Shown here: piece after piece, positions 13,030-16,167 of the stretch
Layout of the letters: every line of letters starts with the position of its first letter
How positions within the stretch are numbered: position 1 is the first letter of the stretch
Source of the DNA: Flavobacteriales bacterium
GTDB taxonomy: Bacteria; Bacteroidota; Bacteroidia; Flavobacteriales; Flavobacteriaceae
Length of the DNA stretch: 35,162 bases
Assembly (NCBI GenBank): GCA_004214175.1
Contig: SGZH01000010.1
Location: 1 to 35,162, forward strand
Reading direction: 5' to 3'
Position numbers and translations under genes: made by a program
Notes under the pieces: model-generated
What the model was told of the DNA's origin: nothing
Database searches by the model: none
The model's input: only the letters and a program-made list of their open reading frames with translations

Positions 13030-13070
13030 ATGACATTATGACATTTAAATACAAATGGCAGTACTTTTGC
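13030..13070 (+). promoter_or_regulatory. grpE-dnaJ control region: sigma-54-like site overlapping a TAnnTTTG box
   Basis: TGGCAGTACTTTTGCT (13056-13071) fits the sigma-54 consensus TGGCACGnnnnTTGCW at all but two fixed positions, with the exact GG-N10-GC spacing (13057-58 and 13069-70). TACTTTTG inside it (13062-13069) also fits the primary-sigma -7 box. Just upstream ATGACATT occurs twice in tandem (13030-13037, 13038-13045). Which polymerase is used cannot be decided from sequence alone. Predicted start about 13076 (primary sigma) or 13082 (sigma-54). Confidence 0.55.
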
Positions 13071-13103
13071 TCTAAGGTAAATTATATATAAAATAACTCA
13101 TTT

Positions 13104-13649
13104 ATGAGCAAAAAAAATAAGAAAGAGAAGGATTTGGTCGAGGATGAAATTCTAACTGCAGAAAAAGACTCAACTCCCGAAGAAGATTTGAATAAAAAAG
13201 ATCCGTTAGCGGTTTTGAAATCAGATTTGGAGAAAGAAAAAGATAAAAATTTAAGACTCTTCGCAGAATTTGAAAATTTTAGAAAACGGACTAGTAAAGA
13301 ACGTATCGAATTATTTTCAACAGCAAGTGAAAGTGTAATGAGTTCATTACTTCCTGTACTCGATGATTTTGATAGAGCTTTACAGGAAATTGAAAAGTCT
13401 GATGAATCTGGGCATCTCAAAGGGATTCTTTTGATTAGTAACAAACTGCGTGAGACACTCAAAATAAAGGGTTTAAAACCTGTTGGTACTGAAAAAGGTG
13501 ATGTTTTTAATGCTGATATCCATGAAGCAATTACCCAAATACCTGCTCCAACAGATGATCTTAAAGGGAAAGTAATAGATATCATTGAAAAAGGTTATTT
13601 ATTAGGCGATAAAATTATACGTTTCCCTAAGGTAGTTATCGGTCAATAA
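13104..13649 (+). CDS. grpE: Nucleotide exchange factor GrpE
   Basis: 181 residues, cytosolic dimer that releases ADP from DnaK. A charged disordered N-terminus (about 1-45) is followed by the long coiled-coil helix (about 46-80, with [16 protein letters not shown]) and the C-terminal beta domain ending with [17 protein letters not shown], the standard GrpE signature. ATG at 13104 follows a plausible heat-shock control region. dnaJ follows after 32 bases, so grpE-dnaJ form one operon; dnaK is not in the window. Confidence 0.96.
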
Positions 13650-13681: not shown

Positions 13682-14791
13682 TTGAAAGAAGATTTTTATA
13701 GCATATTAGGAGTTTCAAAAGGAGCTTCGGCCTCTGAAATAAAAAAAGCATACCGCAAAAAAGCAATTGAATTTCATCCGGATAAAAATCCGGGTGATAC
13801 TAAAGCTGAAGAAAAATTTAAACAAGCAGCTGAGGCCTATGAGGTTCTGAGTGATGCTGATAAAAAAGCCAAATACGACCGTTTTGGTCATCAAGCTTTC
13901 GAAGGTGGTAGTGGTTTTGGTGGATTTGGCGGAGGTGGCATGAATATGGAAGATATATTTAGCCAATTTGGTGATATTTTTGGCGGAGGTGGCTTCGGTG
14001 GTTTTGGCGGTGGTCGAAGAGCACAAACCAAGGGCAGTAACTTAAGGATAAGAGTAAAACTAACTCTAGAAGAGATAGCTAATGGAGTTGAAAAAAAAAT
14101 CAAAGTAAAACGAAAAAAAGTTGCAAAAGGTACTACCTATAAAACTTGTGCGACTTGTAATGGTAGTGGCCAAGTAACCCGAATCCAAAACACTATATTA
14201 GGTAGAATGCAAACTTCTGCACCTTGTAATTCTTGTAATGGTTCAGGACAAACTATTGATAGAAAACCATCCAATGCTGATTTGCATGGAATGTTACAAA
14301 CTGAAGAAACGGTTTCAATAAAAATACCAGCCGGAGTTGTAGAAGGTATGCAGCTGAAGGTGTCTGGAAAAGGAAATGAAGCACCTGGAAATAGTATATC
14401 AGGTGATTTGCTGGTTGCTATAGAAGAACTTCCTCACGCCACTTTGCAGCGGGAAGGTGATAATTTACACCACGATTTATACATTAGTTTTTCAGATGCT
14501 GTTTTAGGAAGTTCAAAAGAAATAGATACGGTAAATGGAAAGGTAAGAATTAAGATAGAACAAGGTGTACAAAGTGGTAAAATTCTTCGACTCCGAAATA
14601 AAGGAATCCCTAGTATTAACAACTATGGTTCAGGTGATTTACTTGTTCATATAAATGTATGGACACCAAAAACATTAAATAAAGAGCAAAAGGAATTTTT
14701 TAAAAAAATGAGTGTAGACGATAACTTTCAACCTAACCCAGAGAAAGGGGAAAAATCTTTTTTTGAAAAAGTTAAAGATATGTTTTCGTGA
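13682..14791 (+). CDS. dnaJ: Chaperone DnaJ with a two-motif (half) zinc domain
   Basis: 369 residues. J domain (about 2-68) with HPD at 32-34 that stimulates DnaK ATPase; Gly/Phe-rich linker (about 72-112); zinc region; then C-terminal substrate-binding domains. Instead of the four CxxCxGxG motifs of E. coli DnaJ only two remain: CATCNGSG (Cys156, Cys159) and CNSCNGSG (Cys182, Cys185), which correspond to motifs 2 and 3 and can form one zinc centre. Where motifs 1 and 4 should be there are no cysteines (AKGTTYKT and KPSNADLH). I recall the same in other Flavobacteriia, so it is likely lineage-wide rather than decay. The start is TTG at 13682: the J domain begins at residue 2 and no ATG lies upstream in range. 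Confidence 0.95.
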
Positions 14792-14828: not shown

Positions 14829-14855
14829 CACTACTTCGGTAGTGTAATTTTTCTT
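14829..14855 (+). terminator. Hairpin with C(UUCG)G tetraloop and T-rich tail
   Basis: CACTAC (14829-14834) and GTAGTG (14839-14844) pair perfectly around a TTCG loop closed by C-G, one of the most stable RNA tetraloops. A T-rich tail follows. It could end the dnaJ transcript, or be the 5' hairpin of a small RNA. Confidence 0.65.
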
Positions 14856-14910
14856 TTTCATAGCAATTTTTTCCCATCCTTTATTAAATTAAAGGGTGGG
14901 TTTTGTTTTT
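14830..14910 (+). ncRNA. Candidate small RNA of about 80 nt between dnaJ and the sigma-54 activator gene
   Basis: A TATATTTG promoter box, a predicted start at the foot of a UUCG hairpin, a U-rich single-stranded middle and a strong terminator hairpin together have the layout of an independent small RNA. No open frame of note is present. I did not identify the family; the Flavo-1 RNA of Flavobacteria should be compared. The alternative is simply a double terminator for dnaJ. Confidence 0.35.
14873..14910 (+). terminator. Strong 11-pair rho-independent terminator
   Basis: CCCATCCTTTA (14873-14883) pairs with TAAAGGGTGGG (14890-14900), eleven pairs with one G-U, 6-base loop, followed by TTTTGTTTTTT. 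No T-run on the other side for minus-strand use, so it acts on plus-strand transcripts. Confidence 0.85.
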
Positions 14911-15003: not shown

Positions 15004-16167
15004 ATGTCAAAAATTTTAATCATTGAGGATGAGGCTGCTATTAGAAGGGTGCTGTTAAGGATACTTTCTGAGGAAAATTCACATTACAAGGTTTCCGAAA
15101 CCGAGGATGGTATCCAAGGAATTAATCTTGTAAAAAATGAAAATTTTGATCTTATTTTATGCGATATTAAAATGCCTAAAATGGATGGTATTGAGGTTCT
15201 TACTCAAATAAAAAAAATAAAACCAGAAATTCCCGTAGTTATGATCTCTGGACATGGAGATTTAGATACAGCAGTTCATTCTATGCGATTAGGAGCCTTT
15301 GATTACATTTCTAAACCACCAGATTTAAATCGATTATTGAATACAGTTCGAATTGCATTAGATAGCAAGCAACTATTTGTTGAAAATAAACGTCTCAAGA
15401 AAAAAGTTCAAAAAAAATATGAAATGATAGGAAAATCTCCTTCTATCAATCGTATTAAAGAAATGATTGAAAAAGTTGCTCCTAGTGATGCAAGAGTTTT
15501 GATTACAGGTGCCAATGGATCAGGTAAAGAGCTTGTTGCGCATTGGTTGCATGAAAAAAGTTTGAGAAATAAAGGTCCTTTAATTGAAGTAAATTGTGCT
15601 GCCATACCAAGTGAACTTATAGAAAGTGAATTATTTGGTCATAAAAAAGGAAGTTTTACTGGAGCCTATAAAGATCGAGCTGGAAAGTTTGAAACGGCTA
15701 ATAATGGAACATTATTTCTTGATGAAATTGGAGATATGAGTTTATCTGCTCAGGCAAAAGTTTTAAGAGCACTTCAAGAAAATGTAATAAGTAGAGTTGG
15801 AAGTGATCAAAATATAAAAGTAAATGTAAGAGTTATAGCAGCAACTAATAAAAACCTCCAAAAAGAAATTTCTGAAGGAAATTTTAGAGAAGATTTGTAT
15901 CATCGTTTGGCAGTAATCCTAATAAAAGTCCCATTATTAAATGAAAGACGGGAAGATATTCCTCTGTTAATCCAGCATTTTAGTAAAAAAATTTCTGAGG
16001 AACAAGGTACTATTCGTAAAGAATTTTCAAAAAATGCAGTTACTATGTTACAAAAATACGATTGGACAGGAAATATAAGAGAATTAAGAAATGTAATTGA
16101 AAGATTAATTATTTTGAGTGGTGAACAGGTTTCTGAAAATGACGTGAAATTATTTGCAAGTAAATAA
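15004..16167 (+). CDS. Sigma-54 activator, receiver plus AAA+ domains, no DNA-binding domain
   Basis: 387 residues. Receiver domain (about 1-120) with acidic pocket IIEDE and phosphoacceptor Asp54 in CDIKMPKMDG. The AAA+ domain (about 145-370) has Walker A GANGSGKE (Lys175), the sigma-54 contact loop as GSFTGA (216-221, Ala to Ser variant of GAFTGA), Walker B LFLDEIGD (Asp240, Glu241) and WTGNIRELRN. The protein stops at DVKLFASK, just after the AAA+ lid, so the usual Fis-type helix-turn-helix is absent. The frame ends naturally with no HTH coding sequence visible after the stop, so this looks like a real family variant. It would activate RpoN polymerase from solution or with a DNA-binding partner. 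No sensor kinase is adjacent. Confidence 0.92.
   Translation: MSKILIIEDEAAIRRVLLRILSEENSHYKVSETEDGIQGINLVKNENFDLILCDIKMPKMDGIEVLTQIKKIKPEIPVVMISGHGDLDTAVHSMRLGAFDYISKPPDLNRLLNTVRIALDSKQLFVENKRLKKKVQKKYEMIGKSPSINRIKEMIEKVAPSDARVLITGANGSGKELVAHWLHEKSLRNKGPLIEVNCAAIPSELIESELFGHKKGSFTGAYKDRAGKFETANNGTLFLDEIGDMSLSAQAKVLRALQENVISRVGSDQNIKVNVRVIAATNKNLQKEISEGNFREDLYHRLAVILIKVPLLNERREDIPLLIQHFSKKISEEQGTIRKEFSKNAVTMLQKYDWTGNIRELRNVIERLIILSGEQVSENDVKLFASK

Follow-up and report, generated by a model that had tools for sequence, protein, structure and literature searches.

The analysed window is the entire contig C2 (35,162 bases) of genome G000, a 1.33-Mb assembly of 69.6% completeness. Its forward strand carries grpE (13104–13649; Pfam PF01025, E 4.1e-35) followed by dnaJ, which begins with a TTG codon (13682–14791; PF00226, PF01556, and PF00684), and the two genes are judged by their position to share a transcription unit. 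Downstream of dnaJ, on the same strand, a pattern scan found two terminator-like hairpins (14829–14844 and 14873–14900), hairpins of this type numbering four against 1.2 expected over the 2.2 kb scanned. A TATATTTG box lies directly 5' of these hairpins (14829–14900), where a short RNA could be encoded. The next protein gene on the forward strand (15004–16167) encodes a response regulator-type sigma-54 activator composed of receiver, AAA+, and lid domains (PF00072, PF00158, and PF25601, respectively), as the original prediction had stated for the gene after dnaJ. RpoN itself is encoded on another contig of G000 (C20:9940–10416; E 2.4e-51).

Immediately upstream of grpE, also on the forward strand, an activator-type upstream site, TGACATTATGACA (13031–13043; consensus TGWCA-N3-TGWCA), is enclosed by tandem ATGACATT copies (13030–13037 and 13038–13045) and separated by a 12-nt spacer of conserved length (13044–13055) from a predicted sigma-54 promoter, TGGCAGTACTTTTGCT (13056–13071; -24 TGGCA, -12 TTGC), which is conserved across families. 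The upstream site is conserved at grpE in the order and the class and also occurs before dnaK, htpG, and groES. The RpoN consensus is TGGCACG-N4-TTGCW, and TGGCAGTACTTTTGCT departs from it at two fixed positions while keeping the GG-N10-GC spacing, exactly as had been described. Taking C13070 as -12, the predicted start falls at about 13082, which puts the tandem copies at the expected position of about -52 to -37, and the TTG lies 34 nt from the grpE ATG at 13104. RpoN sites with two or fewer mismatches number three on both strands of the window, for which 60 first-order Markov samples give an expectation of 1.98, and the two-mismatch match was rejected as stand-alone evidence because it is at chance level. 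The composite TGWCANNNTGWCA-N12-TGGCA-N6-TTG occurs once in the window as an exact match, and the next best match has five mismatches. On the comparisons that follow, the stretch at 13030–13071 looks like a real sigma-54 promoter of grpE-dnaJ with an activator-type site directly upstream.

Conservation was assessed in 59 genomes sampled from the genus, family, and order, of which 55 possess GrpE; all 55 upstream regions were examined, and 33 of them come from one family, so that agreement among these is not independent. The best match to TGWCANNNTGWCA-N12-TGGYA-N6-TTG at grpE had no mismatch in 33 genomes, one in seven, two in four, and three in one, and the poorer matches had five (three genomes), six (five genomes), seven (one genome), or ten mismatches (one genome, G017, whose upstream region is cut by a contig end). 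The composite element was therefore present with two or fewer mismatches in 44/55 genomes, and none of 1,100 mononucleotide shuffles contained it with three or fewer. Across whole genomes, the composite pattern at up to two mismatches gave matches in 56/59 genomes, and the reversed pattern, used as a control, gave six matches in 5/59 genomes; over the class, the reversed pattern gave one match in 1/247 genomes among the matches listed. A chance resemblance, which the frequency of the RpoN match alone in the window would allow, has a virtually negligible probability against the shuffle and reversed-pattern controls. The grpE upstream region of G046 lacks a good element (seven mismatches), although one match with a single mismatch occurs elsewhere in this genome, and the -24 elements of both grpE and dnaK are degenerate in G050.

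Among the 22 grpE promoters from other families, 13 lie within two mismatches at fixed spacing and nine lie beyond; when the spacing was left free, 17 could be called and five gave no call. All 17 callable promoters carry an upstream site matching at least 8/10 positions, compared with about 10% of shuffles. The best upstream site stands at a spacing of 12 or 13 in all 32 usable promoters of the same family, and the 17 callable promoters of other families show spacings of 12 (nine), 13 (three), 11 (one), 32 (two), 2 (one), and 4 (one), of which those at 2 and 4 are doubtful calls. The last C of the -12 element varies in other families (TTGA, TTGT), and an exact GG-N10-GC was rejected as a promoter requirement because this C is not retained there.

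These comparisons bear on whether the housekeeping sigma-A transcribes grpE through TACTTTTG, the RpoN match being a by-product. The caveat attached to the original prediction was sound in that TACTTTTG fits the sigma-A -7 box TAnnTTTG, which stands in register in 30/33 grpE promoters of the same family, and the chance-level frequency of a lone RpoN match also suits this explanation. The box stands in register in only 1/17 grpE promoters of other families and in none of the 13 callable groES promoters, at which both TGGYA and the upstream site persist; these promoters were called via TGGYA, which makes the conservation of TGGYA partly built in, and the upstream site lies outside the call. The -7 box is thus not conserved at orthologous promoters beyond the family, and TGGCA and the tandem element are kept across families, which is the reverse of the pattern (TAnnTTTG kept, TGGC and repeats lost) that had been named as speaking against sigma-54. 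In F. psychrophilum, moreover, the starts of grpE, dnaK, groES, and htpG carry the sigma-54 motif SM4 and not the TAnnTTTG motifs SM1–3 in the passages of the report concerned (PMC9723704). Transcription of grpE by sigma-A with a fortuitous RpoN match is accordingly very unlikely. Since TAnnTTTG is limited to the family and TGGYA and the upstream site extend more widely, the part shared with a housekeeping promoter is, by these alignments, a feature of grpE in this family, within which a dual sigma-A/sigma-54 promoter may exist.

Twenty non-grpE matches were taken from the 59-genome scan, and the genes behind them were identified by reading the proteins, one of each kind being confirmed by Pfam. 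Sixteen of the 20 precede htpG (six), groES-groEL (five), dnaK (four), or Hsp20 (one), and the other four, which carry one or two mismatches, precede unrelated genes, whose products are LemA, a protein with MORN repeats, an SRP54-type GTPase, and one protein assigned to no family. In G000, the element stands before grpE (no mismatch) and dnaK (one mismatch), and htpG was not found in this incomplete genome. An exact scan of named genomes returned at least 120 matches, and the 80 listed are all from Bacteroidota by title and by the placement of their genera, that of Scybalousia having been checked. Among these 80 listed matches, 69 precede GrpE (32), DnaK (25), HtpG (10), GroES (1), or Hsp20 (1), where the count for grpE is partly built in because the pattern was derived from grpE and the counts for the other genes are not; the remaining 11 precede ClpB-type (two), Lon (one), thioredoxin (three), and SMODS nucleotidyltransferase (one) genes or a gene without a family (one), or are cut off (three). 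The three thioredoxin genes, checked by Pfam, follow exact copies of the element in three records (L219, L232, and L241) from Mucilaginibacter and Pedobacter. The SMODS (CBASS-type) nucleotidyltransferase gene lies directly behind an exact copy on the minus strand of a Taibaiella MAG (L178:2050–2996), and it may represent a defence gene subject to chaperone control or else a chance match. Over the class, the element at no more than one mismatch is present in 148/247 genomes, that is, not in all of them. RpoN-controlled cochaperones had been proposed for this lineage; the promoter comparisons support the control by RpoN, and the arrangement extends beyond the lineage, as the element recurs in many genomes of the class.

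Sigma-54 starts at chaperone genes are already known from F. psychrophilum, in which 5'-end mapping placed the SM4 motif at groES-groEL, lon, dnaK, grpE-dnaJ, htpG, clpB, and a gene for a thioredoxin family protein, among others, according to passages of the report (PMC9723704). The same passages describe three PF00158 proteins, none of which is assigned as the SM4 activator, and they give blood agar as the strongest inducing condition, heat not being among the conditions named (PMC9723704). The SM4 promoters thus precede the same chaperone genes as the element described here, and no upstream site is named for them in those passages (PMC9723704). Class-wise predictions of sigma-54 regulons likewise report GroEL, GroES, GrpE, DnaJ, and DnaK as enriched in Bacteroidota, most strongly in Flavobacteriia, and, as far as the relevant passages go, these predictions use -24/-12 matrices, in contrast to the upstream sites described here (PMC12316311). 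For the sigma-54 dependence of grpE in B. thetaiotaomicron and F. psychrophilum, a passage of the latter paper cites its reference 80, a paper on nitrogen recycling in Blattabacterium, and this citation looks misplaced (PMC12316311). In the open-licence literature searched, the upstream site, its phasing, and its activator were not found, nor do those papers settle which regulator governs the chaperones of Bacteroidota.

It is established that sigma-54 requires an AAA+ activator. rpoN is present in 57/59 genomes of the genus, family, and order sample and in 233/247 genomes of the class. Besides the response regulator in the window, G000 encodes a second AAA+ protein (C23:13568–14860), which possesses AAA+ (PF00158, E 9.2e-68), lid, and Fis-type HTH domains and in which no receiver was detected by Pfam. 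Its HTH belongs to PF02954 (HTH_8; E 2.6e-11 in G000 and 5.1e-12 in G050). Among 30 activator proteins, all of one family, the GAFTGA loop is present in 30/30 and the motif LG.SERTLYRK.K in 29/30, the match to the remaining protein ending at residue 364 of 431. Orthologues of this receiver-less AAA+/Fis-HTH protein score at least 405 bits in 57/59 genomes, the next match among those listed having 250.6 bits, and the two genomes without one, G002 and G010, are both 87% complete; over the class, 239/247 genomes have it at a threshold of 1e-80, one copy each. In G000, the gene stands in the order miaB (read by eye), activator, lptE, a gene for an unnamed protein, secG, groES, and groEL. groES was found in 58/60 class genomes searched, and the activator gene lies within 5 kb of it (2.1–3.9 kb) in 29 of the 39 genomes for which both could be placed among the matches listed; the linkage fails in the other ten, in one of which groES is at a contig end.

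The neighbouring response regulator (15004–16167) had been hinted at as the regulator of grpE-dnaJ, and it could in principle act from solution without binding DNA, as is known for activators such as FlgR and CtcC. In 34 selected genomes, a second AAA+ activator match is located 2.0–9.5 kb from grpE, which would suit such a role, with the reservation that the types of these proteins may differ. No HTH family was detected by Pfam in the response regulator, and a protein lacking a DNA-binding domain would leave the conservation of the upstream site without explanation; terminator-like hairpins, furthermore, separate its gene from dnaJ. Of 11 genomes examined, five (G042, G045, G050, G055, and G057) contain one strong PF00158 match only (>200 bits, all others <40), which in each is the receiver-less AAA+/Fis-HTH type, and all five have the upstream site before grpE. 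Promoters of this kind therefore probably do not need the window-type response regulator. G046 is a sixth genome with one activator match, yet it lacks a good grpE element. The hint at the neighbouring gene is probably wrong, and activation by this response regulator from solution is regarded as quite unlikely. The receiver-less protein is the likelier activator of the grpE promoter from these genome comparisons, and its binding to TGWCA-N3-TGWCA is what we infer from the co-occurrence, from the linkage to groES, and from the five genomes in which no other strong activator is encoded. The 345-kb genome G050 provides a compact example, in which secG (199210) and then groES (199525) come after the gene for the only strong sigma-54 activator (198004–199194), and both groES and grpE have palindromic sites upstream.

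With an N-terminal AAA+ domain, a C-terminal Fis-type HTH, and no receiver, the G000 protein resembles PspF and other receiver-less NtrC-type activators. Among solved chains, it is closest to those of NtrC-family regulators (4l4u, 249.6 bits) and FleQ, the PspF chains score about 204 bits, and the curated NCBIfam PspF threshold is not reached (279.6 vs 443.55 bits). Unlike PspF, the G000 activator has a long linker bearing a conserved segment, and its proposed targets are chaperone genes. This segment, at residues 281–307 between AAA+ and HTH (L384), is conserved as ERE[IL]LYKVLFDM..DLND.KKLT.ELM, and a shorter motif from it is present in 29/30 activators of the same family. No Pfam family was found at these residues, and the segment is a candidate for the signal-input part of the protein.

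The position of the upstream site relative to the promoter was examined at groES in 30 genomes from 27 families of the class, 27 promoters being callable with TGGYA-N8-G; a stricter -12 pattern called 13 of the 30 promoters and none in the other 17. Upstream sites matching at least 7/10 positions cluster at 12–14, 22–24, 31–34, 43–45, and 51–55 bp, with fewer matches between the clusters (e.g., four at 20–21 bp). The best period is 10.5 bp, with a power of 23.0 for all hits against a 99% null value of 6.3. When one best site per promoter was taken (n = 27), the power was 16.1, compared with 5.7 at the 99% point of a first-order Markov null and 6.9 for the highest of its 300 values, and seven control motifs did not exceed 4.7; in the all-hits analysis, one control motif reached 7.7 at 10.5 bp. 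With hairpins masked, the power remained 12.8 for the best site and 20.2 for all hits (12.3–20.2 over the masked runs). Class-wide, the best site stands at 11–13 bp in 19/22 callable htpG promoters and in 22/24 callable grpE promoters (30 loci each). The best periods of 8.0–8.5 at htpG and grpE were not accepted as phasing and were taken to reflect the half-sites, which themselves repeat every 8 bp, and the phasing claim therefore rests on groES. The two grpE promoters with a spacing of 32 and the G050 groES promoter with a spacing of 23 (counted by hand) are roughly in phase. Confinement of the activator to one face of the helix would be the simplest reading of the groES phase, and an array of sites is the alternative.

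In G000 itself, the best groES site, at a spacing of 33 with one mismatch, lies inside a terminator-like hairpin (read by eye), and groES of this genome is therefore a weak case. Hairpins 5' of groES at four loci (L384, G062, G106, and G111) have stems that consist of TGCCA or of letters resembling TGTCA/TGACA and are trailed by runs of T, and a terminator and an activator-type site may overlap there.

To our knowledge, an enhancer so near the -24 element is unusual for sigma-54 activators, and this nearness would suit another regulator on TGWCA-N3-TGWCA, e.g., a repressor inactivated by heat, with the groESL-linked AAA+ protein acting elsewhere; inverted or direct half-sites, moreover, suit many HTH dimers. 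The groES phase fits an activator facing the polymerase and fits a simple repressor less well, and the AAA+ activator that sigma-54 needs has, in the five single-activator genomes, one strong candidate, which is equipped with a DNA-binding HTH. Occupation of the site by a different regulator is thus rather unlikely. The NorR enhancer, GTCA-N3-TGAC, shares its half-sites, and the 8 bp between their centres, with the palindromic variants (TGTCA-N3-TGACA) found here. NorR possesses a sensor domain and uses several distal sites; unlike those, the site here is mostly 12 bp from -24. A phased promoter-proximal enhancer, if true, would be an uncommon arrangement among sigma-54-dependent promoters.

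Taken together, it is probable on genomic evidence that RpoN and an upstream-bound, receiver-less AAA+/Fis-HTH activator drive grpE-dnaJ within one chaperone regulon across Bacteroidia. In the proposed mechanism, RNA polymerase containing sigma-54 (RpoN) would bind the -24/-12 elements (TGGCA/TTGC) of grpE-dnaJ and wait. The hexameric activator, presumably the G000:C23:13568–14860 protein clustered with lptE, secG, groES, and groEL, could then use its Fis-type HTH domains to bind TGWCA-N3-TGWCA, which lies some 45 bp before the start. Held there on one constant side of the helix, it would open the complex upon chaperone need. The regulon may comprise dnaK, grpE-dnaJ, groESL, htpG, and further proteostasis genes across Bacteroidia. 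The signal may be protein misfolding, perhaps perceived as chaperone titration from the conserved linker segment of the activator. The conserved element, the genes that it precedes, the groES phase, and the occurrence of the activator gene together with its linkage can be read directly from the genomes; we infer heat or misfolded protein as the signal and the linker as the sensor. As in the sigma-32 and HrcA/CIRCE systems, in each of which one regulator governs the cytosolic chaperones, a single regulator would suffice; the proposed system would differ from both in using another sigma factor and depending on an activator, relying on neither a heat-shock factor of the sigma-70 family nor a repressor. 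For chaperone control in Bacteroidota, this defines a testable set of genes together with a binding site and a candidate for the activator.

A broader proposal, which we consider somewhat more plausible than its negation, is that this activator was inherited together with RpoN since the ancestor of Bacteroidia and acts throughout the class as master regulator of the heat-shock response from promoter-proximal, helically phased sites, and that chaperone control explains the retention of RpoN by several flavobacterial endosymbionts with reduced genomes. Walczuchella, Uzinura, and Blattabacterium retain RpoN, a feature described as "unusual in insect endosymbiont genomes" (PMC3971599), and chaperone regulation is offered here as an answer to this oddity. 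In the passages concerned, a use in nitrogen metabolism was guessed for the RpoN of Walczuchella, and Sulcia is not named among the keepers (PMC3971599). No paper linking Sulcia with rpoN and heat shock was found in the open-licence literature. In the dnaK promoter region of G050 (C1:277300–277520), a GGCATGATGATTG stretch occurs in duplicate, and about 100 bp upstream lies TGACT-N3-TGTCA, a possible more distant enhancer.
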